From assembly GCF_003751635.1 (NCBI RefSeq), contig NZ_RJVI01000002.1, positions 186,001 through 250,000 of the forward strand: a DNA stretch of 64,000 nt, given 5' to 3'. Below are positions 5,747-57,185 of the stretch, piece after piece. Numbering within the stretch: position 1 is the stretch's first letter; every line of letters begins with the position of its first letter. This DNA comes from Inmirania thermothiophila (GTDB lineage: Bacteria > Pseudomonadota > Gammaproteobacteria > DSM-100275). The translations under genes were made by a program, and so were the position numbers. The notes under the pieces were generated by a model. That model made no database searches. It was not told where the DNA came from and worked only from the letters and a program-made list of their open reading frames with translations.

Positions 5747-6635
5747 GGCGCCCTTCCGCTGCGGCTACGTCGCCCTGGTGGGGCGGCCCAACGTGGGCAA
5801 GTCGACGCTGCTCAACCGCCTCGTGGGCGAGAAGCTCAGCATCACCGCGCCCAAGCCCCAGACCACCCGCCACGTCCTGCTGGGGATCCGCACCCGCCCC
5901 GATGCCCAGCTCATCTACGTCGACACCCCGGGCATCCACCGCCGCGCCCGCCGCGCGCTCAACCGCTACATGAACCGCGTCGCCGCCGGCGCCCTGGCCG
6001 ACGTGGACGTCGCGGCGATGGTCACCGAGGGCACGCGCTGGACCGAGGAGGACGAGCTGGTGCTGGAGCGGCTGGCGCCGGTGCAGTGCCCCGTGGTGCT
6101 GGTGATCAACAAGGTGGACCGGGTGCGCGACAAGCGCGCCCTGCTGCCGCACATCGACGCGCTGCGCGGCAGGCGCGCATGGGCCGAGGTGGTGCCGGTC
6201 TCCGCGCTCCGGGGCGACAACGTGGAGGCGCTGGAGGAGGCCCTCGTGAGGCTGCTGCCCGAGGGGCCGGCGCTCTTCGAGCCGGGACAGCTGACGGACC
6301 GCAGCGAGCGGTTCCTCGCCGCCGAGATCGTGCGCGAGAAGCTCACCCGCCGCCTCGGCGAGGAGCTGCCCTACGCCCTCACCGTGGAGGTGGAGCGCTT
6401 CGTCGACGAGGGGCGGCTCGCGCGCATCCACGCCGTCATCCTGGTCGAGCGCGAGAGCCAGAAGCCCATCGTGATCGGACGCGAGGGCGGCATGCTCAAG
6501 CGCGTGGGCATCGAGGCCCGCGAGGACCTGGAGCAGCTGCTGGGGCGCAAGGTGCACCTCGAGCTCTGGGTGAAGGTGCGCGAGGGCTGGAGCGACGACG
6601 AGCGGGTGCTGCGCAGCCTCGGCTACCGGGAGTGA
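5739..6635 (+). CDS. era: GTPase Era
   Basis: A 298-residue essential GTPase for 30S subunit assembly, binding 16S rRNA near its 3' end. The G1 motif is GRPNVGKST (15-23), G3 is DTPGIH and G4 is NKVD. The C-terminal KH domain contains [13 protein letters not shown], at about residues 246-258. Its start lies 8 bp inside rnc, and the rnc-era-recO order is standard. Where Era usually ends G3 with Leu-His, this protein has [16 protein letters not shown], which still matches the family. Confidence 0.97.
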
Positions 6636-6641
6636 GCGAGG

Positions 6642-7364
6642 GTGAGCGAGGGGCTGGAGCCGGCCTACGTCCTGCACGGGCGCGACTTCCGCGAGTCGAG
6701 CCGCATCGTCGAGCTGTTCGCCGCCGGCCATGGTCGCGTGGGGGTGGTGGCGCGCGGGGCGCGGGGGCCGCGCTCGCCGTGGCGATCTCTGCTGCAGCCC
6801 TTCCGCCCGCTGCTCGCGTCCTGGGGCGGGCGGGGCGAGCTCGCCACCCTGCGCCGGGCCGAGCCTGCGGGGGCGGCGCCCCTGCTGCGTGGCGAGGCCC
6901 TGCTCGCGGGGCTCTACGCCAACGAGCTGCTGCTGCGCCTGACGGTGCGGGGCGATCCGCATCCGGGCCTCTTCGCCGCCTATCACGCCCTGCTCGGGGC
7001 GCTGCCCGATGCCGGGCGGCGGCGCTGGGCGCTGCGCCGCTTCGAGGCGGCGCTGCTCGAGGAGCTGGGCTGGGGCCTGCCGCTGGAGCGCACCGCCGAC
7101 GGCGCGCCGGTGGTGGCGGAAGGCCGCTACCGGCTCGAGGGGGGGCAGCGGCTGGTGGCCGTGGCGCCGGAGGCCGCTGGTGCGGTCTCGGGGGCGACGC
7201 TGCTCGCCCTGCGCGGGGAGGAGCCGCCGCCCGGGGCGCACGCCGGCGAGGCGCGGCGGCTCCTGCAGCAGGCCCTCGCCCGCCACCTCGGCGGGCGGCC
7301 GCTGCGCAGTCCGGAACTGCTGGGCGGGCGCCGGGGCGCGCCCGCGGGGGAGGCCGAGGCATGA
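6642..7364 (+). CDS. recO: DNA repair protein RecO
   Basis: A 240-residue protein of the RecFOR pathway that loads RecA onto SSB-coated single-stranded DNA. The N-terminal OB fold starts with [21 protein letters not shown], and the helical C-terminal domain includes ANELLLRL and [16 protein letters not shown], both typical of RecO. It contains no cysteines, so the zinc site of some RecO proteins is absent, as in E. coli. Translation starts at GTG 6642, 6 bp after era, and the stop overlaps the pdxJ start (ATGA). Confidence 0.95.
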
Positions 7365-8110
7365 GCACCCACATCGAGGCCCCGCTGCTCGGGGTCAACA
7401 TCGACCACGTCGCGACGCTGCGCCAGGCGCGCGGGACCCGCTACCCGGACCCGGTGCAGGCGGCCTTCGTCGCCGAGCAGGCGGGGGCGGACGGGATCAC
7501 CGTGCATCTGCGCGAGGACCGTCGCCACATCCAGGAGCGCGACGTCGCCATCCTGGTGCAGACCTTGCGCACCCGGCTCAACCTGGAGATGGCGGTCACG
7601 GAGGAGATGATGGCCGTCGCCGAGCGCTACCGGCCGGCGCACTGCTGCCTGGTGCCGGAGCGGCGTGAGGAACTCACCACCGAGGGCGGGCTCGACGTCG
7701 CCGGGCAGCTCGCGCGGGTGCGTGAGGCGGTGGCGCGGCTCGGCGCCGCCGGGATCCGGGTCTCGCTGTTCGTGGATCCGGACCGGCGCCAGCTGGACGC
7801 CGCCCGCGAGGCCGGCGCGCCGGTGGTGGAGATCCACACCGGGCGCTACGCCGAGGCCGCGGATGAGGCGGCGCGGCGGCGCGAGCTCGCCCTCGTGCGC
7901 GAGGCCGTGGTCCACGCACGCGGCCTCGGCCTCGAGGTCAACGCCGGCCACGGCCTCGACTACCACAACGTCATGCCGGTGGCGGCCATCCCCGAGCTGG
8001 TGGAGCTCAACATCGGCCACGCCATCGTCTGCCGTGCGGTCTTCTCGGGGCTGGCGGCGGCGGTGGCGGAGATGAAGCGGCTGATGCGCGCCGCGCGCGG
8101 GCTGCCGTGA
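7361..8110 (+). CDS. pdxJ: pyridoxine 5'-phosphate synthase
   Basis: A 249-residue TIM-barrel enzyme that condenses 1-deoxyxylulose 5-phosphate with 3-amino-1-hydroxyacetone 1-phosphate to pyridoxine 5'-phosphate, the last ring-forming step of vitamin B6 synthesis. The N-terminal signature [16 protein letters not shown] is at residues 10-25; [14 protein letters not shown] and the C-terminal NIGHAIV phosphate-binding region are present. The start overlaps recO (ATGA) and the stop overlaps acpS (GTGA), giving a coupled recO-pdxJ-acpS block. PLP made here would also serve CysM, encoded at 15 kb. Confidence 0.97.
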
Positions 8111-8499
8111 TCGTCGGCCTCGGCACGGACGTCGTGCGGGTGGCACGCCTTGCGCGGCTGCACGCGCGCTGGGGAGTGCGCCTGGAGCGGCGCCTGCTCG
8201 CCCCCGAGGAGCGGGCGGAGCTTGCCCGCAGCGCCCGCCCCGCCCACTTCCTGGCGCGGCGCTTCGCCGCCAAGGAGGCGGCGGTCAAGGCCCTCGGCAC
8301 CGGATTCCGGGACGGCATCCGCAAGGCCGACGTGGTGGTGGGGCACGACCCGCGCGGCGCGCCGCGGCTGGAGCTGCGGGGCGCCGCGGCCCGGCGCGCG
8401 CGGGCGCTGGGGGTCGCCCGGGTGCATCTGAGCCTCTCCGACGAGGAGGACGTGGCCCTCGCGGTGGTGATCCTCGAGGCTCAGCCGCCCGCGTCCTGA
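8107..8499 (+). CDS. acpS: holo-[acyl-carrier-protein] synthase
   Basis: A 130-residue 4'-phosphopantetheinyl transferase that converts apo-ACP to holo-ACP for fatty acid synthesis. The motifs are [13 protein letters not shown] at the N-terminus, with the metal-binding Asp, and [14 protein letters not shown] in the middle. Length and fold match bacterial AcpS. The GTG start overlaps the pdxJ stop. The 3' end overlaps the convergent kinase gene by 19 bp, leaving no room for a separate terminator between the two operons. Confidence 0.96.
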
Positions 8500-11400
8500 G
8501 CCGGCGCGGGCTCGGCGAGGGCCTCGATGAGGGCCGCGAGCGCCTCGTGGCGGGCGCGGATCACCGCCCAGTCGCCGTCCTCGGCGGCCTCCTCGAGGGC
8601 GCGGGCATGGGCCGCGAGCGCGGCGTGGCCGGCGGCGAGGGCGGCCCCCCGCAGCCGGTGGGCGAGGGACTGCAGCTGCGCCGCGCGGCGCCCGCGCAGG
8701 GCGGCGGCGAGGGCCGCGGCATGTTCCGGGAGCTCGGCCACGAGCATGCCCAGCAGTTCCTCCCGCACCCCCGCCATGGCGCCCCCCGTCGCGGGGGCGG
8801 CGGTGCCGCCGAGGCGGGCGAGGACGCGGGCGAGGGCGTGCTCGTCCACGGGTTTGGCGACGAAGTCGTCGAAGCCGCGGCCGAGCAGGCGCTGGCGCTC
8901 GTCGCCGGCGCCGGCGGCGGTGAGGGCGATCACGGGGGTGGCGCGGTTGGGCCCCTCCGCGGCGCGCAGCCGCTTGAGCACACGCTCGCCGCTCATCCCC
9001 GGCATGTGCAGGTCCATGAAGATGGCGTCGAAGGGCTGCGCCGCGGCCGCGGCCAGCGCCTCCCGTCCGTCGGCGGCGAGGGTGACGCGGGCGCCCGCCT
9101 GGCCGAGGAGGAGCTCCATCAGGCGGCGGTTGACGGCGTTGTCGTCCACCACGAGGAGGTGCAGCCCCGCCGCGGGGGCAGTGGCGGGCCGCTCGGCCGC
9201 CGCCGGCTCCGGGGCGGTGGCGGCGCGCAGCTCGTCGTAGAGGATGTGGCTGACGAAGGGCTTGTCCCGGCAGCGCACCGTGCAGCGGGCGCAGGCCTGC
9301 TCGCGCTGGGCGGCGCTGCGGCCGCTGACGTAGGCGATCACGGGCAGGTCGAGGGCGCGCAGCGCGGCCACGGTGTCGCGGCAGCGTCCAGCGGCGGCCT
9401 CGTCGGCGCGGAAGGCGAGCACCGCCGCGTCCAGCGCGCGCCCGGAGGCGGCGGCGTGGCGCGCCGCGTCGGGGGCGGCGGCAAGATCCGCCACCTCCAG
9501 GGTCTCGATCCCCCAGTGGTGGAGCACGTGGCTCATGGAGAGGCGGGCGAGGCGGTGGCGCTCGCAGAGCAGCACCCGCCGCCCGTGCAGGTCCTGGCGC
9601 AGGTCCGGTGCCGCGGTGTCGAGGCGCAGGCGCAGGGTGAACCAGAAGGTGGATCCCCGCCCCGGCGCGCTCTCGACCCCGATGCGCCCGCCCATGTGCT
9701 CCACCAGGCGGCGGCAGATCGCGAGCCCGAGCCCGCTGCCGCCGTGGCGGCGCTCGGCCGCGCCGTCGAGCTGGGTGAAGGGGGCGAAGAGGCGCTCGAC
9801 GTCCGCGGCGCGGATGCCGATGCCGGTGTCGCTGACCTCGATGCGCAGGCGCAGGTCCTCGGTCTCCCCGTCGCCGGCGTCGTCGTTCATGACCCGCACC
9901 ACCACCTCGCCCTCGTCGGTGAACTTGATGGCGTTGCCCACCAGGTTCACCAGCACCTGGCGCAGGCGCACGGCGTCGCCGACGACGGCCTCGGGGACGT
10001 CGGCGTAGACCAGGTGGACGAGCTCGAGGCCCTTCTCGGCCGCCGCGGCGCCCAGCATCGAGAGCACCTCCTCCACCAGCTCGCGCAGGTGGAAGGGGCC
10101 TTCCTGCAGCTCCAGGCGGCCGGCCTCGACGCGGGAGAGGTCGAGGACGTCGTTGAGCAGGGTCAGGAGGTGGCGGGCGGAGCGGTCGATGGTCTCCACG
10201 TAGTGGCGCTGGGTGGGGTCCAGGCGGGTGCGCAGGAGCATGCCGGCGAAGCCGACGATGCCGTTCATGGGGGTGCGGATCTCGTGGGAGATGTTGGCGA
10301 GGAACTCGGACTTGGCCCGCGAGGCGGCCTCGGCGCGGTCGCGGTCCCGCACCAGCGCCCGCGCGGCGCGCTCGCGCTCGAACTCGAAGGCGGCACGGGC
10401 GGCCACGAGCCGCAGCAGGGCCCGCGCCGCGGGGGTCTCGGCGCGCGGCTGCGGATCGGCCACCCAGACCGCGCCCACGATGCGGCCCGAGGCGTCGCGC
10501 ACGGGCTCCCCGGCGTAGCTCTCCACCCCCATCGCCCGGCGCAGCGTATCGCCGGGGTGGCGGCGGGCGAAGCCCGCCTCGATGGCCACCGCGCGCCCCT
10601 CGAGACAGACCTCGGCGCAGGGGGTCTCGCGCAGCAGGTAGCACAGGTGCGGGGCCGGTGTACCCGCCTCGGCGCTGCCTGCGGTCTCGACCCAGTCGGG
10701 GCGGCCCTCCACCTCCCGGCAGAGGGCGGCCCAGCGCGCGTCGAGCCCGATGCAGAGCGCCGCGGCGAAGGCGTCGTAGAGCTCGGCGGGGCTGCCCCCC
10801 ACCTGGGCGAGGCGCTCCAGCGCCTGCTCCATGCGCCGCCGCTCGGTCACGTCCTGGCCCACCGCGATCACGCCCACGACGCGCCCGTCGGTCCCGCGCA
10901 GCGGGTGGTGGGACCAGAGCATGTGGACGATGCGCCCGTCGCGACGGAGGTTGGTGAGCTCGGCCACCGGATAGGACCGCGGGTCGCGCAGGATCCGGGC
11001 GAGCTGCTCGGCGTGGCCTCCCGGCAGCAGGGTGGCGAGCAGCGGCCGCCCCACGAGCTCCTCCTCCTCGTAGCCGAAGAAGCGGGCCGCGTGCTCGTTG
11101 ACGAAGGTGATGCGACCGGTGAGGTCCAGCTTGAGGATGGCGCTGTTGGCGTTCTCCACCAGCTCCCGGTAGCGGGTCTCCTGCGCTGCCAGCGCCTCCA
11201 GCGACTCGCGCAGCTCGGCGGTGGCGCGCTCGATGCGCGTCTCGAGCTCGCGCTGCGCCCGCTCCAGGGCCTTGGCCATGCGGTTGAAGCCCCGCCCGAG
11301 GGTGGCGAGCTCCTCCTCCCGGGCGACCCGCACCCGCGTGTCCAGGTGGCCGGCCTCGAGCCGCGAGACCGCCTCGGTCAGCTCCGCCAGCGGGCGCGTG

Positions 11401-11981
11401 ATGCGCCGTCCGAGCCACCAGGCGCCGGCGAGCCCGAGCAGCAGCACCCCCGCCGAGAGCAGCGCCGCCTCGCGGGCGAAGGCCCACTGCGCGTTGCGGG
11501 TGGCGGCGAGGGAGAAGCGGACGCTCACGAAGCCGGCGACGCCGGCGGGCTCGGCCTCGGCGGGGGCGAAGTCGTCCACCCGGATCCCGGTGGGGCGCAC
11601 GGGGACGGTGACCGTGAGGTCGTGGCGGGTGCGGCGCAGCCCCGCGGTGGGGGCCTCGGGCGGGCGGGGGTCCGGGCGGCCGAAGCGGGCCAGCACGCGG
11701 CCGTCGGCGCTGCGCACCTCGGCGCCCTCGAAGCCCGGGGTGGCGGCGAGCTGGCGGGCGAGGCCCAGGTCGTCGAGGTAGCGCAGGTTGCCGCTGTAGA
11801 CGCCGTACTCGGCCGCCACCGCGAGCTGCGCGGCGAGGGCGCGTGCGCGCGCCTCCAGGGAGGCCTCCTCGGCCTGGAACTGGCGGCGGACGAAGTGGCC
11901 GGTGAGCACCAGGGCGCTCAGGACCAGGGGCACCAGGGTGGCCGCCAGCAGGTGCCGGCGCAGGCTCGGTCCCCCCTTCAT
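8481..11981 (-). CDS. hybrid sensor histidine kinase (BarA/GacS-like N-terminus, PAS, GAF, two REC, HPT)
   Basis: A 1166-residue membrane sensor kinase. Order of parts: TM1 (10-30), periplasmic sCache-like region of the BarA/GacS type (35-165), TM2 (170-192), HAMP (193-250), PAS (265-380), GAF (395-530, with [10 protein letters not shown]), HisKA with phospho-acceptor His566 ([10 protein letters not shown]), HATPase_c (660-790, DTGIGI and GGSGLGL), a degenerate receiver (800-920) lacking the phospho-Asp, a true receiver with Asp990 (MDLHMPG), and an HPT domain with His1108. The ATG at 11981 overlaps the upstream binding-protein gene by 4 bp (ATGA), so the kinase probably reads that protein's ligand. 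BarA lacks the PAS and GAF parts, so I do not call it barA. Its output partner is not encoded next to it. Confidence 0.9.
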
Positions 11982-12895
11982 AGTGCGCCCACCTCCCGCT
12001 CCTCCAGCTCGCGCAGCTCCCGGGCCAGCACCGGCGCCCCCGGCAGGGTCAGGCCCAGGGCGTGCGCCACGTAGGGGTTGACGACGACGTCGAAGCGGCG
12101 CGGCGGGCGCGGCCCGGGGTCGGGGGCCTTGCCCGCCAGCGCCGCCTCCACCAGCGCCGCGAGCTCGCCGGCCATCTCCTCCGGCCCCGAGAATACCCCC
12201 GCCACGGCGCCGGCGCGAACGAGGGCCCGGGAGGGGCCCACCACGGGCACGCCGGCGCGGTAGGCGCGCAGCAGCAGCGGGCGGATGCCGACCCGGTTGA
12301 CCACCACCGGATCCGGAAGCAGCGCGAGCACCGAGACCTCGGGCAGCAGCTCGTCGAGGACGGGGATGAGGGCGCCGGCGTCGGGGACGAGGCCGATGCG
12401 CGGCACCCGCCCGAGGGCCCGCGCCGCCGCCTCCACCGCGGCGCGGGCGGCACCCGAGCGGGGACCGAGGAGGACGCCCACGTGGCGCGCCTCGGGTAGG
12501 GCGAGGGCGGCAAGGCGCAGGATCCGCGCCGGGGGTTGCTCGGTGGTGACGATCCAGAGCCGGTGCCGGCGCGGCGGCGGCAGCCGCGCGACGACGGCCT
12601 CGGCGTCGGCGCGCGGTACGAGCCCCGCCACCACGGGCAGCGCCGGCGGGAGGGTCGCGATGCCGGCGAGGGCGTCGCGGCCGAGGACCACGTAGGCCGC
12701 AGCGCCCGCGCGCACGGTCCCGGGTGCATCGGCCACCGGCTCGTGTCCGCCGGTGCGCAGGGCCGCCTCGACGAGGGCCGCCGTCTCCCGCGCGGCGGCA
12801 TCGCCCCCGCCCCACACCGCCACCTGCGCCGCCGGGGCGGCGGCCGCCGCCACCAGCAGCACCAGCGCGGCAGGGAGGCGGAGCGGCGCAGCCAC
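11978..12895 (-). CDS. periplasmic ABC-type substrate-binding protein (ABC_sub_bind family)
   Basis: A 305-residue protein with a signal peptide (about 1-23) and a type-1 periplasmic-binding fold. Features of the ABC_sub_bind family (PF04392) include an early strand with a GGG turn, a central [13 protein letters not shown] segment and late [22 protein letters not shown] and [14 protein letters not shown]. No permease or ATPase gene is near; instead the stop codon overlaps the start of the hybrid kinase. It therefore more likely presents a ligand to the kinase than feeds a transporter. The ligand is unknown. The start at 12895 is GTG without a clear ribosome-binding site, so the exact N-terminus is uncertain. 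Confidence 0.75.
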
Positions 12896-12911
12896 GGCGT
12901 GCTCGCGGCGC

Positions 12912-14942
12912 TCAGAGGGGCAGGGTCACGCCCGCCTGGAGGCGGGTGTCGAGGCGGTTGTCCGGCTGCAGGTCGGCATCGGCGCCGTCGACGTTTTGCA
13001 GCGCCAGGCGCCAGCGCGCACCCCGGCCGGCGCCGGCGAGCGGCCCCGAGAGGGTGAGGTCGAGGCGGCGGTAGGCGCCCACCGTCGCGCCCACGTCGAG
13101 GAAGCGCATGCCGCTCACGTAGTAGGCCGCCGCGCTCGCGCGCAGCCCGCCCGCGAGGCGCCGGGTGAGGAGCAGGGCGAGGTTTTGGCGCGGCACCGAC
13201 TCCTCCAGGTCCTGCGCATCCTCGCCGCTGGCGTCGGCGTCGGTGAGGGCGTAGGCGAGGTGGATGCGGTTGCGCCGCCCGGGGCGGGCGTCGAGCTGGA
13301 GCTCGAGCCCGTGCAGGCGCACGTCGTTGCGGTTGACGAAGACCCCGGTCTTGCCGTCGACGTTGTAGACACCGTCCTTGGCGGCGAGGGTCAGCTTGGT
13401 GGCGGCGACGAGGCCGTCGAGCCGCTCGGTGAAAAGCTTGAGGTCCCCCGCCACGGGGCCGGCGCGGAAGATCCAGCCGAGCTCCAGCGAGCGCATCTCC
13501 TCCGGGTCCGGCAGGCGGCGGGTGAGGAACTGGTGATCCATGACGAGGTCGCCGCGCACGTCGGTGCCGACGAGAGCATCGAGCACGCCGTCCAGCAGCG
13601 CCGCCTGCAGCGGGTCGGTGACGCGGCCGAAGAAGGCGAAGTCGCCTGCGGCCTCCACCGCCGAGGGGTTGCGGGTGGCGCCCGCGACGGTCAGGCGCAG
13701 GGCGTGGCCCGGGGCGATGCGCAGGTTGACCCCGAGGCGGGGGGCGATGCGGGTGCCGCTCACCCGGTTGGCCTCCGCCATGGCGCCGGCGTTCCAGACC
13801 AGGCGGCCGCCGCCGCCCTGCTCGAGGTTGCCGAACAGGCGCCAGAGGTCGTTGCTGAAGGACCCGCCGGCGAGGAGCCCGGGCGCCTCCACCTCGTCGT
13901 GGCGGGCCTCCAGGCCCCAGACGATGCGGGTTCCAGGGCGCGGCGCGACCACGTGCTGCAGCTCGAGGTCGGTGCGGCGGGCGTCGCGACCGAGGTCGGC
14001 CTCGACCTCGAGGGGAAGATCCCCGAGCCCGGGAAGCGGGATCGTGGCGGGTCCGCTCTCCCGGTCCCGGGTGCGCTCGCGGCGGTGGTAGGCGAGGAGC
14101 GTAAGCTCCTCCCCGGGGCCGAGGACGCGGCGCCAGCGCCCCTGGACGAACCCGGTGTCGGTCTCGTCGCTGCGGCGGTCGTCGAAGCCGAACTGGTCGA
14201 CGCCGTCGCCCTGGCCGTGGCGGCCGTGGTTGTAGCCCCCTTGCAGCTCCACCATCTCGGCGGGCCCCAGGGGCAGATCGGCGCGCAGGGCGAGGATCGC
14301 GGTCTCGGCATCGTCGTTGCGGCCGCTGAAGCCGTCGTCGCGCCGGTAGGCGAGGCTCGCGCGGAAGGCGCGCTCGCCGCGCGCGCCGGCGAGCCGCAGC
14401 ACCGCGCGGCGCCGCCCCGGCTCGCCCGCGGCGACGGCGGCGCCGTTGCGGGTCTCCAGGGCGGTCTCGGTGACGATGTTGACGATCCCCTGGAAGGCGT
14501 TGGGGCCGTAGGCGGCGGCGTTGGGGGCGCGGATGATCTCGATGCGCGCGATGTCCTCCATCACCAGCGGCAGGTTGCTCCAGCGCACGCCTCCGAAGGC
14601 CGGGGTGTAGACCGAGCGGCCGTCCACCAGCACCTGCATGCGGCGTGCGTAGGGGTCGAGGAGGCCGTGGTAGCCCACCGTGGCGTGATGGCCGTTGAGG
14701 TGGCCGACGAGGAACCCCGGGGCGAGGCGGAAGAGCTCCGGGAGCTCCGTCGCGCCGCTCGCCTCCATGAGCTCGCGGTCGATGACGGTGACCGAGACCG
14801 GGGCCTCCAGGGCGGGCTGGCGAAGGCGCGTGGCGGAGAGCACCACCGGCAGCTCGGCGGCGGCGGCGAGCAGCGGCGGCTCTGCGGCGCGGGCGGTGAA
14901 GGCGAGGGCAAGGGCAAGCAGCCAGCCGGCGGTTGCTCTCAC
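12912..14942 (-). CDS. TonB-dependent outer-membrane receptor
   Basis: A 676-residue outer-membrane receptor. A signal peptide (1-20, ending ARA) precedes a plug domain at about 30-150 (SVTVIDRELMEASGATELPE, then RMQVLVDGRSVY, then IEIIRAPNAAAYGPNAFQG). The rest forms the 22-stranded barrel. GTG at 14942 is chosen because GGGAGGA lies 7 bp upstream on this strand and it gives a proper signal peptide. It leads an operon with the binding protein (16-bp gap) and the hybrid kinase. The substrate cannot be read from sequence. The C-terminus ends Leu-Pro-Leu rather than in an aromatic residue, which is unusual for a barrel assembled by BAM. Confidence 0.9.
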   Translation of the reverse strand: MRATAGWLLALALAFTARAAEPPLLAAAAELPVVLSATRLRQPALEAPVSVTVIDRELMEASGATELPELFRLAPGFLVGHLNGHHATVGYHGLLDPYARRMQVLVDGRSVYTPAFGGVRWSNLPLVMEDIARIEIIRAPNAAAYGPNAFQGIVNIVTETALETRNGAAVAAGEPGRRRAVLRLAGARGERAFRASLAYRRDDGFSGRNDDAETAILALRADLPLGPAEMVELQGGYNHGRHGQGDGVDQFGFDDRRSDETDTGFVQGRWRRVLGPGEELTLLAYHRRERTRDRESGPATIPLPGLGDLPLEVEADLGRDARRTDLELQHVVAPRPGTRIVWGLEARHDEVEAPGLLAGGSFSNDLWRLFGNLEQGGGGRLVWNAGAMAEANRVSGTRIAPRLGVNLRIAPGHALRLTVAGATRNPSAVEAAGDFAFFGRVTDPLQAALLDGVLDALVGTDVRGDLVMDHQFLTRRLPDPEEMRSLELGWIFRAGPVAGDLKLFTERLDGLVAATKLTLAAKDGVYNVDGKTGVFVNRNDVRLHGLELQLDARPGRRNRIHLAYALTDADASGEDAQDLEESVPRQNLALLLTRRLAGGLRASAAAYYVSGMRFLDVGATVGAYRRLDLTLSGPLAGAGRGARWRLALQNVDGADADLQPDNRLDTRLQAGVTLPL

Positions 14943-15026
14943 GGCGGTGTCCTCCCGGGATGCGGTCCTCTTTGCGCCGTAGGGTAACCCGTCGGCCGCC
15001 GCCGCGCCTCGTGGTCGCCGCGGTGG

Positions 15027-50293: not shown

Positions 50294-50626
50294 TCAGATG
50301 CAGCCGGTCGGCTTGGGCAGGCCGGCGATCTTGCAGGCCTGCTTGGCCGGGCCGTAGGGGAACAGCTCGTAGAGGTACTTGCTGTTGCCCTTGTCGGGGC
50401 CGAGCTTCTTGCCGATGGCCTTGGTGAGGACGCGGATCGCCGGCGCGATCTGGTACTCCTCGTAGTACTCGCGCAGGAAGTTGATCACCTCCCAGTGGGC
50501 GTCGGTCAGCTCGATGCCCTCGTCCGCGGCCAGCTTCTTGGCCACGTCCTCGTTCCAGTCCGACAGGTTGACGATGTAGCCCTCCTCGTCGGTCTCGATG
50601 ACCTTGCCGTTGACCTCGATCGCCAT
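50294..50626 (-). CDS. dsrC: DsrC, sulfur carrier / DsrAB partner
   Basis: A 110-residue DsrC/TusE-family protein. The flexible C-terminal arm KQACKIAGLPKPTGCI carries both redox cysteines, Cys98 and the penultimate Cys109, ten residues apart as required for a true DsrC. These form the DsrC trisulfide that links DsrAB to DsrMKJOP and accept sulfur from DsrEFH. The protein is complete and typical in length. It lies 43 bp after dsrH and has AGGAG upstream of the ATG. Confidence 0.97.
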   Translation of the reverse strand: MAIEVNGKVIETDEEGYIVNLSDWNEDVAKKLAADEGIELTDAHWEVINFLREYYEEYQIAPAIRVLTKAIGKKLGPDKGNSKYLYELFPYGPAKQACKIAGLPKPTGCI

Positions 50627-51408: not shown

Positions 51409-51768
51409 TCAGTCCCCGAACACCACCAGGCGGTCGGCCTGGATCCCGGACTCGATGAGCTGGCCGAGGCCCGAGATGCGGAAGCGCGGGGCGAGGTTCT
51501 CCTCGACCAGCCCCCGGCGCAGGCCCGCGGCGACGCAGACCACGAGGTCGATGTCGTGCTCCTCGGCGAGCTTGATCCAGCGGTTGACGATGTGACGGTC
51601 GTCCTGCGGCGGCTCGGTGAGCTTGGACGCGTTGTGGACGCCGTCGTGGTAGAAGAACACGCGGTGGATCCGGTGCCCCTTGGCCAGCGCCGCCTTGCAG
51701 AACTGGTAGGCGGTGTCGGCGGCCTGATGCTGATAGGGGCCCTCGTTGACGAGGATGCCGAACTTCAT
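51409..51768 (-). CDS. dsrE: DsrE, active-site sulfurtransferase subunit
   Basis: A 119-residue DsrE/TusD-family protein. The active Cys78 lies in DLVVCVAAGLRRGL, the same position as the essential cysteine of A. vinosum DsrE, which binds the persulfide sulfur passed to DsrC. The start FGILVNEGPYQHQAADTAYQF is characteristic. It is separated from dsrB by 57 bp that contain a long palindrome. Confidence 0.96.
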   Translation of the reverse strand: MKFGILVNEGPYQHQAADTAYQFCKAALAKGHRIHRVFFYHDGVHNASKLTEPPQDDRHIVNRWIKLAEEHDIDLVVCVAAGLRRGLVEENLAPRFRISGLGQLIESGIQADRLVVFGD

Positions 51769-51793: not shown

Positions 51794-51817
51794 GGGGCCG
51801 GCCCGCGGGCCGGCCCC
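51794..51817 (-). terminator. palindrome between dsrB and dsrE
   Basis: A 24-base perfect palindrome: GGGGCCGGCCCG (51794-51805) followed by its own complement (51806-51817). As RNA it could form a stem of ten or more G-C pairs. With no T-run it may serve as an attenuator, an mRNA-end stabiliser for dsrAB, or an RNase stop. Confidence 0.5.
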
Positions 51818-51825
51818 GCGTGCGG

Positions 51826-52905
51826 TCAGAAGCGCAGGTGCGCCGAGGCGTTGAGGCTCGCCCGCGCGCCGCGCCAGTCGTCGATGTGGTACTTGGTGAA
51901 CGGCAGGCCGGTGAGCTCGAAGAAGCGCGGCCAGCCGATGCGCTCGATCCACTCGCCCATGCGCTCCCAGTCGCGCGCATCCTCCTTGTAGGCGCGGAGG
52001 ATCTTCTTCACCACCTCGGCGACCTCCGGCCAGCGCGGCGGATTGTTGGGCAGGTCCGCCGCCACCAGCTTGTGGAAGGTGGGCTTGCTGCGGGCGTTGG
52101 AGTTCTTGCCGCCCACCCAGACCGCGAGCTTGGTGTGCACGGGGTCGTTGATCTGCATCGGCGGGCAGGGCGGGAAGCAGGCGCCGCAGCAGACGCACTT
52201 CTTCTCGTCCACCTCCAGCGAGGGCTTGCCGTTGACCAGCGCCGGGCGGATCGCCGCCACCGGGCAGCGGGCCACCACCGCCGGGCGCTCGCAGACGTTG
52301 GCCACGAGGTCGTGGTTGATCCGCGGCGGCTTGGTGTGCTGGACGTTGATGGCGATGTCGCCCTGGCCGCCGCAGTTGATCTCGCAGCAGGAGGTGGTGA
52401 TGCGCACGCGGTTGGGCATCTCCTCGCGGATGAACTCCTCGTAGAGCTCGTCCATGAGGGCCTTGACGACGCCGGAGGCGTCGGTGCCCGGGATGTCGCA
52501 GTGGAGCCAGCCCTGGGTGTGGGCGATCATGGACACCGAGTTGCCGGTGCCGCCCACGGGGAAGCCCTCGGCCTCCAGCTTCTCGATGAGGGGCTGGACC
52601 TTGGCCTCGTCGCTCACCAAGAACTCGATGTTGCTGCGGATGGTGAAGCGGACGTAGCCCTCGGCGTACTCGTCGGCGATGTCGCACAGCTTGCGGATGG
52701 TGTGGACGTCCATCTGCCGCTGCGTGCCGGCGCGCACGGTCCAGATCTCGTCGCCGCTCTCGGCGACGTGATGGAGGACGCCCGGCCGCGGGCGTTCGTG
52801 CCACTTCCACTTGCCGTAGTTCTTCTTCATCACCGGGTGGAGGAAGGGCATCACGTCGACGACGCCGCTCTCCACCGGCGGACGGGGTTTTGCTGCCTCG
52901 GCCAT
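51826..52905 (-). CDS. dsrB: dissimilatory sulfite reductase subunit beta
   Basis: A 359-residue siroheme/Fe-S protein, beta subunit of DsrAB. The siroheme-[4Fe-4S] region is TTSCCEINCGGQGDIAINVQ, and the inserted ferredoxin domain has CVCCGACFPPCPPMQI plus RCPVAAIRP. In this operon DsrAB works in the oxidative direction, taking sulfane sulfur from DsrC to sulfite. The coding end is at 51826, and the ATG is 45 bp after dsrA. Length matches known DsrB (about 357). Confidence 0.97.
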   Translation of the reverse strand: MAEAAKPRPPVESGVVDVMPFLHPVMKKNYGKWKWHERPRPGVLHHVAESGDEIWTVRAGTQRQMDVHTIRKLCDIADEYAEGYVRFTIRSNIEFLVSDEAKVQPLIEKLEAEGFPVGGTGNSVSMIAHTQGWLHCDIPGTDASGVVKALMDELYEEFIREEMPNRVRITTSCCEINCGGQGDIAINVQHTKPPRINHDLVANVCERPAVVARCPVAAIRPALVNGKPSLEVDEKKCVCCGACFPPCPPMQINDPVHTKLAVWVGGKNSNARSKPTFHKLVAADLPNNPPRWPEVAEVVKKILRAYKEDARDWERMGEWIERIGWPRFFELTGLPFTKYHIDDWRGARASLNASAHLRF

Positions 52906-52950: not shown

Positions 52951-54201
52951 TCAGCCGGCGGCCTTGGCCTTGCGCTCCTCCCACTTCTTCGCCTCCTCGG
53001 CCCAGCCGTCGAGGCGCACGTAGGGGTTGGTGCGGGGGTGGTTGATCATGTTCGGATCCGGGTCGACCCCGACCCCCTCGAGGAAGTTGGCGAGCCCGAT
53101 GCGCTCGATCATCTCGCCGGTGCGCTCGTGCTCGAGGGCGTTCTCGGCGAAGAACTCGATGACGCGGCCGGCGAACTCCTCGAGGCGCTGCCAGTCCTCC
53201 TCGGTCTCCAGCTTCATGAAGGGGATGATGACCGTGCCCATGAGGTCGCCGATCTTGAGCGTGCGCTTGCCGCCGATGAGGATCGTGACGCCGCGGTCCT
53301 TGCCCGGGGAGAGGGCCTTGGTCATGACGTTGATGCAGTGCATGCAGCGCACGCAGTCCTTGTTGCGGATCTCGAGGGTGTCGTCGTCGCGCAGGCTGAT
53401 GGCCTTGGTGGGGCAGCGGTTGACGACGTTGTCGATGACGTACTGCCGCCCCTTGGAGGCGATGTAGTTCTTGACCTCGGCCTGGTCGATCTGGATGTCG
53501 TCGCGCCAGGTGCCGATGACGGCGAAGTCCGAGCGCTGGATCGAGTTCATGCAGTCGTTGGGGCAGCCCGAGAACTTGAACTTGAACTTGTAGGGCAGGC
53601 TCGGGCGGTGCATGTCGTCGAGGAAGGCGTTGATGAGCTGCCGGTTGGCGCGGTGGGTGTCGTAGCAGGCCTGCTCGCAGCGCGCCGGGCCGACGCAGGA
53701 CATGCCGGTGCGCAGGGCCGGGCCCGCACCGCCCAGGTCGAAGCCCATCTCGTTGATGGCGTCGAAGGCCTTCTGCACGTTCTCCGTGCGGCAGCCCTGG
53801 AACATGATGTCGCCGGTCTGGCCGTGCAGGGCGATGAGGCCGGAGCCGTACTGCTCCCAGATGTCGCAGAACTTGCGCAGGGTGGCGGTGTCGTAGTGCC
53901 AGCCCGGCGGGGGCATCACGCGCAGGGTGTGGAACTCGGCCGCCTCCGGGAACTTGGGCTTGCCGTTCTCGTCGAGGAGCTCGGTGAAGCGGGGGATGAC
54001 GCCGCCGCCGTAGCCGAAGACGCCCACGGTGCCCCCCTTCCAGTAGCCGAGCCGGGTCTCGTAGGAGGTCTCGAGCTGGCCCAGCAGGTCGACCATCATG
54101 TCGTTGTTCTGGGCGAGACGCTTGAGGCCCTTGACGAAGCTGGGCCAGGGTCCCTTCTCGAGCTCGTCGAGCAGCGGCGTCGGATGCATCGGCTTGGCCA
54201 T
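52951..54201 (-). CDS. dsrA: dissimilatory sulfite reductase subunit alpha
   Basis: A 416-residue alpha subunit of DsrAB. The cluster-binding cysteines are in QGCRTENVQ, MSCVGPARCEQACYDTHRA and SGCPNDCMNS, and the ferredoxin domain has RCPTKAIS and CVRCMHCINVM. It is the first gene of the dsr operon, which runs leftward for 12 kb. GAGGAAGAGGAGAG is just upstream of the ATG, an adequate ribosome-binding site. The upstream 415 bp are non-coding. Confidence 0.98.
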   Translation of the reverse strand: MAKPMHPTPLLDELEKGPWPSFVKGLKRLAQNNDMMVDLLGQLETSYETRLGYWKGGTVGVFGYGGGVIPRFTELLDENGKPKFPEAAEFHTLRVMPPPGWHYDTATLRKFCDIWEQYGSGLIALHGQTGDIMFQGCRTENVQKAFDAINEMGFDLGGAGPALRTGMSCVGPARCEQACYDTHRANRQLINAFLDDMHRPSLPYKFKFKFSGCPNDCMNSIQRSDFAVIGTWRDDIQIDQAEVKNYIASKGRQYVIDNVVNRCPTKAISLRDDDTLEIRNKDCVRCMHCINVMTKALSPGKDRGVTILIGGKRTLKIGDLMGTVIIPFMKLETEEDWQRLEEFAGRVIEFFAENALEHERTGEMIERIGLANFLEGVGVDPDPNMINHPRTNPYVRLDGWAEEAKKWEERKAKAAG

Positions 54202-54616
54202 CGCGCTCTCTCCTCTTCCTCTTCGCTGCGCCGGCGCCTCCCCCGAACCGGCAAGGCAGCTAAAGGTTTAGAATATGCTGAAATGCTCTCCGGCTACGAT
54301 AATCAGCGTGCCGGGTGGAGACCATGCCCCCGAAGGGGTAACGGGTTTCGATCCGGACTATCCCGTTCGGGATAGATCCGGGCTAATACCCGAGGGTGAT
54401 GGTCAACATCGGCCCCGTGGGTCATCCTAGGCGCCTCCGAGGGTGGGGCGTATCCCGCCGATGGGGGGTCGGCACCGCCCGGGTGGGATAGGGGGGCGGG
54501 GCGCCTATACTGGGGGGCGGCGACCCCCGGCGGAGGGACGGCGTGAGGCACGAGAAAGGCGGCGTGATCGCGCGCACGGGGCGAGCGGCAACGCCACCGG
54601 CTACAGGGGTGCACCC
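54202..54616. other. 415-bp intergenic region between dsrA and the divergent 71-residue gene
   Basis: This stretch should hold the promoters of dsrA (-) and of the right-hand operon (+). It includes a relatively AT-rich patch at 54260-54305 that could carry the dsrA promoter (TATTCT on the minus strand near 54276), though I find no convincing -35. It also holds repeated TATCCCG/CGGGATA motifs (54359-54374, 54451-54457, 54485-54490) and a possible -10 TATACT at 54506-54511 for the plus strand. A hairpin GGGGG/CCCCC lies at about 54513-54528. No convincing gene is seen in it. Confidence 0.6.
54350..54383. promoter_or_regulatory. palindrome flanked by direct repeats, possible dsr operator
   Basis: TATCCCG (54359-54365), TT, CGGGATA (54368-54374) is a perfect 7-bp-arm palindrome. 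It is flanked by GATCCGGAC (54350-54358) and GATCCGGGC (54375-54383), a near-perfect direct repeat. It lies about 150-180 bp before the dsrA ATG, a plausible activator or repressor site. Half-sites recur at 54451 and 54485. Confidence 0.5.
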
Positions 54617-54832
54617 GTGAGCGCGGAGCAGGAGATCCGGGACCTCGGGCGGCTGCAGGCGCCGTACGGGCGCGAGGTGCAGGTGCGCGAGCTGGTCTAC
54701 GACAACGGCTTCCGGATGCTGCGCCTGATCATCCGGGAGGGGCGGCGCTTCACCACGGTGGATCTCGACCCGGTCTCGGCCCGGGCGTGGGCGGCGCTGC
54801 TGCAGCGCTGGACGGAGGCGCAGCCGAAGTGA
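54617..54832 (+). CDS. small uncharacterised dsr-adjacent protein
   Basis: A 71-residue soluble protein from GTG 54617. The sequence DLGRLQAPYGREVQVRELVYDNGFRML starts near residue 8 and RRFTTVDLDPVSARAWAALL ends it, suggesting a three-stranded sheet with a C-terminal helix. I do not know its function; small proteins of this kind occur in other sulfur oxidizers as far as I recall, but I cannot verify that here. It is the first gene of the operon divergent from dsrA, and its stop overlaps the start of the Cas6-like gene by 4 bp. Confidence 0.65.
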   Translation: MSAEQEIRDLGRLQAPYGREVQVRELVYDNGFRMLRLIIREGRRFTTVDLDPVSARAWAALLQRWTEAQPK

Positions 54833-55527
54833 GCGGGGAGGAGCTCTTCTGGGCCGAGGAGGCGCCGCCCCAGGCGGCCCCGGCGGCGAGCACGCGCGCC
54901 CTCGACCTGCTCTTCGCCCTCGAGGGGCGGATGCTGCCGGTGGACCACGCACTCGCCCTGGGACGGGCGCTGCGCGAGGCCTGTCCGGCGCTCGCGGACG
55001 ACCCCCTCGCCGGGCCCCATCTGATCCATCCGGCGGCCTCGGGCAACGGCTGGACGAGCCCCCAGGACGGGGGCGTGGAGTGGATCTACCTGCCGCGCCG
55101 GGCGCGCCTGAGGCTGCGGGTGTCGGCGGCGACGCGCACCGCGGCCGAGGGGCTCGCGGGTCGCCGGCTGACGCTTTGCGGCCATGCGGTGCGGCTCGGG
55201 CGGGTCGAGGCCCGGCCCCTGCGTCCGGCCCGCACCCTCTACTGCCGCTACCTCGCCACCGCGGCCGCGGACGAGCCGGCCTTCCTCCGCGAGGCGGCGG
55301 CGCGGCTCGCGGGCATGGGCATCCGGCCGCGGCGCATGCTGGGCGGGCGCGAGCATGCCTTCACGGGCCCGGAGGGGGCGGTGGCGGCGCGCAGCCTGCT
55401 CGTCACCGACCTCGCTCCGGAGGCGTCCCTGCGGCTTCAGGAGGAGGGGCTGGGACCGCTGCGCGCCTACGGCTTCGGCCTCTTCCTGCCCTACAAGGAG
55501 GTGGGCGGGGGCGGGGCCGAGGGCTGA
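54829..55527 (+). CDS. Cas6/Cmx6-like RAMP protein (no CRISPR array present)
   Basis: A 232-residue protein resembling the MYXAN-type Cas6 variant (Cmx6). Shared features are LEGRMLPVDHALAL near residues 31-44 with a candidate catalytic His40, HLIHPAASGNGW (64-75), RRARLRLRV, LTLCGHAVRLG followed by RPARTLYCRYLA (132-143), and the RAMP glycine-rich end GLGPLRAYGFGLFLPYK (207-223). Cas6 enzymes cut CRISPR repeat RNA. No repeat array or other cas gene is in the window, and it is coupled to a dsr-adjacent small gene, so it probably has another RNA-binding or processing job. It overlaps the convergent Sfum_1244 gene by 37 bp. Confidence 0.72.
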   Translation: MSGEELFWAEEAPPQAAPAASTRALDLLFALEGRMLPVDHALALGRALREACPALADDPLAGPHLIHPAASGNGWTSPQDGGVEWIYLPRRARLRLRVSAATRTAAEGLAGRRLTLCGHAVRLGRVEARPLRPARTLYCRYLATAAADEPAFLREAAARLAGMGIRPRRMLGGREHAFTGPEGAVAARSLLVTDLAPEASLRLQEEGLGPLRAYGFGLFLPYKEVGGGGAEG

Positions 55528-56564
55528 GGGGCCGGCAGCCGCAGGGCGGCGAGGGCGGCGGGTCCGCGAAGGTGCGAGGCGAGCGCGGAGGCGGGCTCGG
55601 CGAGGAGCCCTCTGGCCGTGGCCAGCCAGTGTGCCCGTCCCGCGGCGGCGGCCTCGTGCAGGGGGCGCCAGTCGCCGGGGTCGGCGAGCCAGCGCCGGTA
55701 GGCGGCCTCGAACCGCGCGAAGAGCGTGCGCCGTGGCCCCTCGAGACGCGCCGCGTAGAGGTGCAGGTGGAGGGGGCGGCGGTCCCCGATCAGCACCGGA
55801 AGCACCCGCAGGCAGTCGGCGAGGAGGTCGCGCACCGCGCGCAGGACGTGCTCGGCGGGGGTGCCGGCGAGGGCCGCGAGATGCGCCTCCCAACCCGGCC
55901 CCAGAAGCCGTCCCGCCGCCGCCTCGCCCAGCTCGTGCAGCAGCGCGAGCTCCTCCTGGGCCTCGGCGAGGGTCGCGAGGGCGTCCCCCGACCCCGCCGC
56001 CGCCGCGGCCCGCGCCATGGGGGTCGCCGCCGGCCGCCGCCCGGCCAGGCCCAGCTCGTCCCACACCATGGCGCGGATCTGCTCGCGGCGCAGGAAGACG
56101 TAGCCGGAGCGGGTCATGGCGGGGGCGCCGGCGACGTCCCGGGCGTGCTCGCGCCCCAGGCGCAGGATGCGCAGCCCCTCGCGCGCCTCGGCCGCGTCCA
56201 GCTCCGCGAGGAGGAAGCTCGGCTTGCCGCCGACGCCGACCCCGGCGGCATAGGCGAGGCCGGTGGCGGCGAGGCGGCGGTTGGCGGTCTCGATGTCGAA
56301 GGGGTCCACCGGCCCGCCGAGGGGCAGGGGGCGGTAGTCCTTCCCGGCGAGCCGCGCCCAGCGCCGCTCCTGGGCCTCGATCCAGGCGCCCACCTCGTCG
56401 CCCGGCAGCGGGTCGGCGAGGGCACGGCCGTGCGCCCAGCGATACTGGGCGCGCATGCGCAGCAGATAGGTGCAGATGGAGGCGTCGCGCGCGTGGCGCG
56501 CGTCGGAGACGTCGCAGTTGTGCTGCACCGTGCGGCGCAGGGTGTCGAGATCGATGGCGGCCAA
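55491..56564 (-). CDS. Sfum_1244-family protein
   Basis: A 357-residue soluble, mainly helical protein. The N-terminus LRRTVQHNCDVSDARHARD, then ICTYLLRMRAQYRWAHG matches my memory of the Sfum_1244 family, named from a Syntrophobacter gene and of unknown function. A MTRSGYVFLRREQIR segment lies near residue 155. The best start in frame is TTG 56564, without a Shine-Dalgarno; an AT-rich stretch (56570-56605) immediately upstream could hold the promoter, so the mRNA may be nearly leaderless. It faces the Cas6-like gene tail to tail and the next gene head to head. Confidence 0.7.
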   Translation of the reverse strand: MAAIDLDTLRRTVQHNCDVSDARHARDASICTYLLRMRAQYRWAHGRALADPLPGDEVGAWIEAQERRWARLAGKDYRPLPLGGPVDPFDIETANRRLAATGLAYAAGVGVGGKPSFLLAELDAAEAREGLRILRLGREHARDVAGAPAMTRSGYVFLRREQIRAMVWDELGLAGRRPAATPMARAAAAAGSGDALATLAEAQEELALLHELGEAAAGRLLGPGWEAHLAALAGTPAEHVLRAVRDLLADCLRVLPVLIGDRRPLHLHLYAARLEGPRRTLFARFEAAYRRWLADPGDWRPLHEAAAAGRAHWLATARGLLAEPASALASHLRGPAALAALRLPAPQPSAPPPPTSL

Positions 56565-56624
56565 GCGTTCAGCACATGGTAATATGATCAAAATGATAGC
56601 AGCCCGCGGGGACGGAGGTGGGGC

Positions 56625-57185
56625 GTGGTCCGTCTGAAGTCGCGCTGGCACCGCAAGGATGCGCCGAGGCGTGCCGAGGAGGTGGGCTCGGCGGTGGCCT
56701 TCTCGGCCTGGAAGGTGGCCCTGGAGGGGGTCAGGCGTCTGCTCGGGGCGGGCTACGAGCTGGAGAGCGACCCGCGCCGCTTCGCCATCCTGGGCGAGTT
56801 CGCCGCCTTCCTCCTGCAGATGGCGGACCGCTACGCCTATGGGCGGCTGGAGGACGAGCAGCGCCGGCGCATGATCGTGGCCGCCGGGCGCCGCATGGCC
56901 GAGGTCATGGAGGAGAACCAGCGCGAGCGCCTCGGGCCGGGCGACTACCGCGCCGCCTTCATCGACCACCTCAACCGCCGCCTGCAGGAGTACGCGGAGC
57001 TGAGCTTCGTCGGCGAGGAGCCGGGCTTCAGCAGCATCCGCTACCTCGGCGAGGTGGTGTGCGAGCACGCCGGCGACTGGGACCGGCGCTGGCTCAAGGA
57101 GCAGGTGATGGAGGTGGAGGCGCCGGAGGCGGTGCGCGCCTTCCGGCGGGCGCTGGCGAACCTGCTCGCGGTGCAGGTCTGCTGA
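56625..57185 (+). CDS. uncharacterised helical protein
   Basis: A 186-residue soluble protein, largely alpha-helical by eye. It has a basic N-terminus and FSAWKVALEGVRRLL, GEFAAFLLQMADRYAYGRLEDEQRRRM, and a C-terminal WLKEQVMEVEAPEAVRAFRR. The last residues are Val-Cys. I do not recognise the family. GTG 56625 has GGAGG at 56614-56618. It is divergent from the Sfum_1244-family gene across 60 bp, so the two may be co-regulated, and it is followed by a strong hairpin. Confidence 0.65.
   Translation: MVRLKSRWHRKDAPRRAEEVGSAVAFSAWKVALEGVRRLLGAGYELESDPRRFAILGEFAAFLLQMADRYAYGRLEDEQRRRMIVAAGRRMAEVMEENQRERLGPGDYRAAFIDHLNRRLQEYAELSFVGEEPGFSSIRYLGEVVCEHAGDWDRRWLKEQVMEVEAPEAVRAFRRALANLLAVQVC

Follow-up and report, generated by a model that had tools for sequence, protein, structure and literature searches.

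A Cas6-family protein encoded beside dsrA accompanies the reverse Dsr genes across Gammaproteobacteria

Introduction

Cas6 proteins are known as processors of CRISPR (clustered regularly interspaced short palindromic repeats) RNA. In the closest described system, type I-MYXAN, the Cas6 gene sits with cas3, cas8a1/cmx8, cas7 and cas5, and a CRISPR array is adjacent. Here, we describe a gene of this family in a 64,000-nucleotide stretch of the Inmirania thermothiophila genome (contig NZ_RJVI01000002.1, positions 186,001 to 250,000; hereafter the window), which stands instead among the dsr (dissimilatory sulphite reductase) genes and a module of further neighbours, has no array in the window and, across genomes, follows dsrA and not Cas1. 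Its product is nevertheless homologous to the type I-MYXAN / I-B Cas6 (Cmx6) over its whole length (profile 7e-26).

We found that the tie of this Cas6 protein to dsr is near-obligate in Gammaproteobacteria and that CRISPR functions are gone from its surroundings. A non-CRISPR role tied to Dsr is almost certain, and it is likely that the protein acts through RNA. We propose that a Cas6-fold RNA-binding protein or endoribonuclease was recruited to dsr sulphur oxidation, where it would act most plausibly on dsr mRNA, and assign to this explanation as a whole a probability of roughly 0.5. A search of the open-access literature, which left most subscription journals outside its reach, returned no paper on a link between Cas6 and dsr.

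Results and Discussion

A bona fide member of the Cas6 family

The initial annotation, made from the sequence, had described the product as a Cmx6-like repeat-associated mysterious protein (RAMP) and had suggested looking for a Cas6 ferredoxin fold. Profile searches and structure prediction agree with this description. The protein matches PF09559 (Cas6) at 2.4e-47, with 161.8 bits against a cut-off of 26.7, and TIGR02807 (cas6_cmx6) with 100.9 bits, barely above the cut-off of 98.85; seven PADLOC Cas6 models match it as well. Structure prediction with AlphaFold2 and 26 homologues gave a mean predicted local distance difference test (pLDDT) score of 87.6 and a predicted template modelling (pTM) score of 0.83. 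The top Foldseek match to this model in the PDB was 8fcu_B, the Cas6 of a type I-B CRISPR-associated transposon (CAST) Cascade (E 1.3e-14, template modelling (TM) scores 0.73/0.79), and the 8fcj/8fcu Cas6 also shares the glycine loop with the window protein. The remaining matches with E <= 1e-3 were Cas6, Cas6e and related CRISPR/Cascade entries; Cas6e (Cse3/CasE) has the same fold class but is a different family. Homology and the predicted RAMP fold (double ferredoxin-like) together show that the window protein is a bona fide Cas6-family member.

Residue conservation was scored in 129 proteins of the dsr-type and in four CRISPR-linked cyanobacterial relatives. His40, already singled out in the initial annotation as conserved, is kept in 127 of the 129 and in all four relatives. 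In the model it directly precedes the first helix (predicted 41-51), a position that we take to be the general-base site of Cas6 enzymes; on conservation only, His40 would be the equivalent of this general base. The glycine-rich loop G207-x-G209...G215-F-G217 is similarly well preserved (G207 129/129, G209 128/129, G215 127/129, G217 129/129), and Arg91 and Arg97 are invariant in all 129 dsr-type proteins. Differences to the CRISPR-type were seen as well: the dsr-type proteins form a separate clade, split from the cyanobacterial members at a 100/96 branch, and carry an extra conserved insertion at about 66-80 (GNGW-RP) as well as conserved positions (Arg91, Glu149 and Lys223) that the four relatives do not have.

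The insertion, being missing in CRISPR-type proteins, could be taken as a sign that the Cas6 fold now serves Dsr proteins as a scaffold or in their maturation, with RNA irrelevant. The TauD-like oxygenases found in the neighbourhood would suit such a role, as would the CysG-like siroheme enzyme of alphaproteobacterial loci. However, the general-base histidine and the glycine loop are kept as in Cas6 nucleases, and Dsr systems outside the Gammaproteobacteria mature without the Cas6 protein. We therefore regard a pure scaffold as unlikely.

Co-occurrence with dsrA

Is the neighbourhood with dsr a peculiarity of this one locus? In our main sample of 274 Gammaproteobacteria genomes, drawn evenly over the class, the PF09559 family was present in 90, always as one gene copy (in G263 the gene is split into two matches), and the dsrA model gave a strong or clear partial match in 93. 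Both genes were found in 86 genomes, cas6 only in 4, dsr only in 7 and neither in 177 (Fisher 4e-57, phylogeny ignored). In all four cas6-only genomes the contig with the module stops where dsrA would begin, and in six of the seven dsr-only genomes the contig stops before or inside the module; one of these six, G206 (99% complete), may truly be without cas6. This leaves G210 (86% complete) as the sole clear dsr-positive genome without the gene. Where cas6 and dsrA share a contig, they are divergent and 0.7-4.5 kb apart in 64 of 65 genomes.

Among the 80 best named loci (below, the 80 named loci), 57 have dsrA within a few kb of cas6, and the labels are mostly those of sulphur bacteria or unclassified Gammaproteobacteria. 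A gammaproteobacterial dsr/cas6 locus was also seen in an entry titled Halobacteria archaeon (L089), probably a mis-binned metagenome-assembled genome. In a second, phylum-wide draw of 398 genomes, five carry the family, all five beside dsrA; four of these five proteins come from other families of the class and branch outside the main dsr-type clade. None of the approximately 47 genomes of other classes that have dsrA in this draw carries the Cas6 gene. The observation is far more general than the single window, and the neighbourhood comparison that the initial annotation had called for shows, by co-occurrence and by synteny, a gene that tracks dsrAB and not CRISPR arrays.

Independence from CRISPR

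Cas1 was found in 33 of the 90 genomes with cas6 and in 55 of the 184 without it (Fisher p 0.27), and 57 of the 90 gave no Cas1 match at 1e-12. The window had been described as free of a CRISPR array and of other cas genes. Indeed, a scan for CRISPR-like direct repeats over the 64 kb was empty, and the only Cas1 of the host genome lies 570 kb from the window, whose open reading frames were not all scanned for cas genes. The host possesses a complete-looking type I-E locus on contig C2 at about 806-815 kb, with Cas7e, Cas6e, Cas1e and Cas2e and an array of at least 67 repeats of 29 nt (L245, G000:C2:800500-820000, about 6300-15000). As this system has its own Cas6e, encoded by a separate gene, host CRISPR has no need of the dsr-type protein.

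These data bear on the simplest reading of the family name, namely a Cas6 encoded on its own and processing CRISPR RNAs in trans. The annotation of the family as type I-MYXAN Cas6/Cmx6 and the presence of an array in the host speak for it, but the array is served by its own Cas6e, many of the genomes with the gene have no Cas1 match, and the gene tracks dsr and not Cas1. We rejected this reading, which is hardly credible on these grounds. Members of PF09559 that are linked to CRISPR were found in cyanobacteria, adjoining cas3, cas8/cmx8, cas7 and cas5; the conserved histidine is common to them and to the dsr-type protein. A viral origin or spread of the Cas6 gene was likewise rejected, as the viral contig collection held no relatives.

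Retention of cas6 away from dsrA

A fixed neighbour of dsr could also be a passenger without a functional tie, since linkage alone could be inherited. However, in at least eight families (f10, f33, f43, f58, f97, f109, f125 and f164) cas6 stands on a different contig from dsrA or at a distance of 40 kb from it, with ample flanking sequence, and is kept nonetheless; physical linkage is therefore not the reason for its being kept. The gene also persists in genomes of only 1.0-1.1 Mb (G039, G141, G254), and where a family has dsr-positive as well as dsr-negative members (f2, f107, f134), the gene goes with dsr. Against this background, a mere passenger is highly improbable.

The neighbouring module

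The features of the window are collected in Table 1. The initial annotation had placed the Cas6 gene in a block of four genes divergent from dsrAB, and each of its gene-level statements proved correct: the 71-residue gene coupled to cas6 is DUF6967 in Pfam, its TGA stop sharing bases with the GTG start of cas6 in a GTGA overlap; dsrA lies head to head with this pair; the Sfum_1244-family gene follows on the opposite strand, convergent with cas6 and overlapping its 3' end by 37 nt; and the helical gene has no match in the profile libraries, but orthologues of it stand in this neighbourhood in other genomes. The extent of the block, in contrast, was underestimated, since in most genomes it is larger and includes TauD, a protein of about 65 aa and a DsrC paralogue without cysteines.

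Table 1. Positions of the dsr genes, the Cas6 gene and associated elements in the window
Feature	Position	Strand	Evidence or remark
Cas6-family protein (dsr-type), 232 aa	54829..55527	+	GTG start; PF09559, TIGR02807, AlphaFold2, Foldseek, 129 homologues
DUF6967 (PF22295), 71 aa	54617..54832	+	translationally coupled to the Cas6 gene; Pfam match 2.9e-27
Sfum_1244 / DUF6866 protein, start codon uncertain	55491..56564	-	NF045620 332 bits, PF21739/PF21740
Uncharacterised helical protein	56625..57185	+	no family match; orthologues in 34/80 loci
dsrA, divergent from the DUF6967-Cas6 pair	52951..54201	-	TIGR02064 578.6 bits
dsrB	51826..52905	-	
dsrE	51409..51768	-	
dsrC with both C-terminal cysteines	50294..50626	-	PF04358 1.8e-50
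Palindrome TATCCCGTTCGGGATA, likely operator	54359..54374	.	conserved upstream of dsrA in gammaproteobacterial loci
GC hairpin GGGGCCGGCC-cgcg-GGCCGGCCCC in the dsrB-dsrE gap	51794..51817	-	candidate substrate or stability element

The order in the 80 named loci is dsrA on the minus strand, followed by a TauD-like oxygenase, the ~65-aa protein, sometimes a protein of ~235 aa, cas6 and a DsrC-like protein; farther along come PKHD and other 2-oxoglutarate (2OG)-Fe(II) oxygenases, Sfum_1244 (in 33 of the 80 loci) and the helical gene. The window genome contains no TauD anywhere, and none of its three DsrC-family genes is of the module type.

The protein directly after cas6 in most loci (L032-L111) belongs to the DsrC / TusE family (PF04358) but, unlike the DsrC of the dsr operon, which keeps both C-terminal cysteines in 86 of 90 cases, has lost both in all 93 readable cases. 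This paralogue corresponds to the Rsp group of the DsrC literature. Its position could point to another RNA that the Cas6 protein would bind or cut, such as tRNA, a small RNA or other sulphur-regulon mRNAs, perhaps linking the sulphur relay (Tus/DsrC-like) to RNA. DsrEFH and DsrC are homologous to TusBCD and TusE of the tRNA 2-thiouridine pathway (PMC3397948), and the retention of cas6 unlinked from dsr would fit this explanation as well. Because both cysteines are missing, however, the module paralogue cannot be a usual sulphur carrier, and the strict head-to-head synteny with dsrA favours a local or regulatory relation. A substrate of this other kind is possible, albeit not probable.

Parts of the module also occur without cas6. 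In alphaproteobacterial reverse dsr (rdsr) loci (L220-L223), TauD and the ~65-aa protein lie beside dsrA, followed by a CysG-like siroheme gene, and DUF6967 was identified beside dsrA in L221-L223; DUF6967 would therefore be part of an older dsr-side module, later joined by cas6 in Gammaproteobacteria, and TauD and the ~65-aa protein look like members of this older set as well. Nor is the DUF6967 domain confined to dsr loci, as it is also present, unlinked, in two genomes without dsr (G105 and G222; L228-L230). Its high-confidence model consists of four strands and a helix. Among its best Foldseek matches are Pur-alpha repeat III, Borrelia Pur-alpha, YdbC and SP_0782, with TM up to 0.75 and probability up to 0.99, but these PUR/PC4-like matches are weak (E 0.7 or worse) and come without a sequence match. 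In its predicted fold, DUF6967 resembles the PUR/PC4-like nucleic-acid-binding domains, which recur most consistently among its structural matches (E ~0.7).

Structures in the dsr RNA

The initial annotation had further stated that the dsr transcript carries strong hairpins and had speculated that these connect the Cas6 protein with it. The first statement is accurate for the dsrB-dsrE gap of the window, which carries one hairpin (60 nt, minimum free energy -32.2), and does not apply to its dsrA-dsrB gap, where no strong hairpin was found. In other gammaproteobacterial loci the dsrA-dsrB gap does contain a strong hairpin (35 of 85 loci, i.e. about 40%, vs 0.2 in shuffles), 10-18 bp long and located roughly 30-40 nt before dsrB. 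No hairpins above shuffles were seen in the cas6-RspA gap. The speculated connection found no support in its stated form, because of five alphaproteobacterial rdsr loci, all lacking cas6, four also have strong hairpins, which are therefore not specific to the Cas6 gene. The hairpins are real and a property of these operons, and do not speak for a Cas6 substrate; existing without the gene and without a common sequence, they were rejected as its specific substrate. Of the earlier interpretation, the fold, His40 and the co-occurrence with dsr are strongly supported, and the hairpin link as stated is not.

With about 142 nt, the inferred dsrA leader shows more structure than two sets of controls (mean z -1.0 vs -0.2 and -0.3). 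In Allochromatium vinosum on sulphide, dsrEFH and dsrC transcripts are reported to be above dsrA (Grimm et al. 2010, as cited in PMC3397948). Such unequal levels of dsr segments would fit segmental mRNA processing, but they would equally fit internal promoters.

A possible role in reverse Dsr sulphur oxidation

How could a Cas6 protein act in sulphur oxidation? Recruitment to dsr is shown at the level of comparative genomics. We propose that the protein gave up its part in CRISPR immunity and now serves the oxidative (reverse) Dsr pathway of Gammaproteobacteria as a dedicated accessory, which would bind, and probably cut, structured RNA. The target would most plausibly lie in the dsr transcript, either in the long dsrA leader or in the intercistronic hairpins, and cutting would tune the expression of dsr segments. 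That dsr mRNA is the substrate has an even chance at best. Targeting of Cas6, or its coupling to sulphur status, would be helped by its partners: DUF6967, the ~65-aa protein and the DsrC paralogue without cysteines. More tentatively, and with odds somewhat short of even, a CRISPR-derived or CRISPR-ancestral Cas6 endoribonuclease may have been fixed across Gammaproteobacteria as a dedicated post-transcriptional regulator of reverse Dsr, with a small nucleic-acid-binding protein and the DsrC paralogue as sulphur-state sensor.

Several observations weigh against recruitment to act on dsr mRNA. Dsr chemistry can run without the Cas6 protein, because dsrA-positive genomes of other classes do not have the gene. 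The searches of the dsr hairpins yielded no RNA target for the protein and, over 85 loci, no shared sequence, and the hairpins of cas6-less alphaproteobacteria and the alternative of internal promoters belong here as well. The structure signal of the leader is modest, the co-occurrence statistic has no correction for kinship, and the presumed general base is replaced in two proteins (Asn in L163, Tyr in L140).

A near-universal, single-copy Cas6 homologue in dsr-positive Gammaproteobacteria means that a core sulphur-cycle pathway may have an unrecognised RNA-level component, and it indicates a second, uncharacterised job of an RNA-cutting fold in sulphur energy metabolism. Automatic annotation hides this non-CRISPR family under a CRISPR name. 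Direct testing is possible in culturable dsr-positive bacteria, such as A. vinosum and relatives of organisms recovered in this analysis (Thioalkalivibrio, Thiorhodococcus).

A putative operator upstream of dsrA

The motif TATCCC-N4-GGGATA, allowing at most one mismatch, was found in the divergent region upstream of dsrA in 52 of 91 gammaproteobacterial loci, compared to 1 of 91 in shuffles, and in none of the alphaproteobacterial loci examined. Its perfect form has a single copy in the 2.6-Mb host genome, the palindrome of Table 1. Two observations led us to reject the palindrome as RNA on which the Cas6 protein acts: where a genome has the two genes apart, it remains beside dsrA and does not accompany cas6, and its place in the window is upstream of both inferred promoters. 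A regulator of the dsr promoter probably binds to it. Approximately 36 nt past the palindrome lies a CACCCCATnGGTAGGGT-like element, followed by a CCTAGACTT-like -10 element, and this arrangement is conserved upstream of dsrA in the gammaproteobacterial loci.

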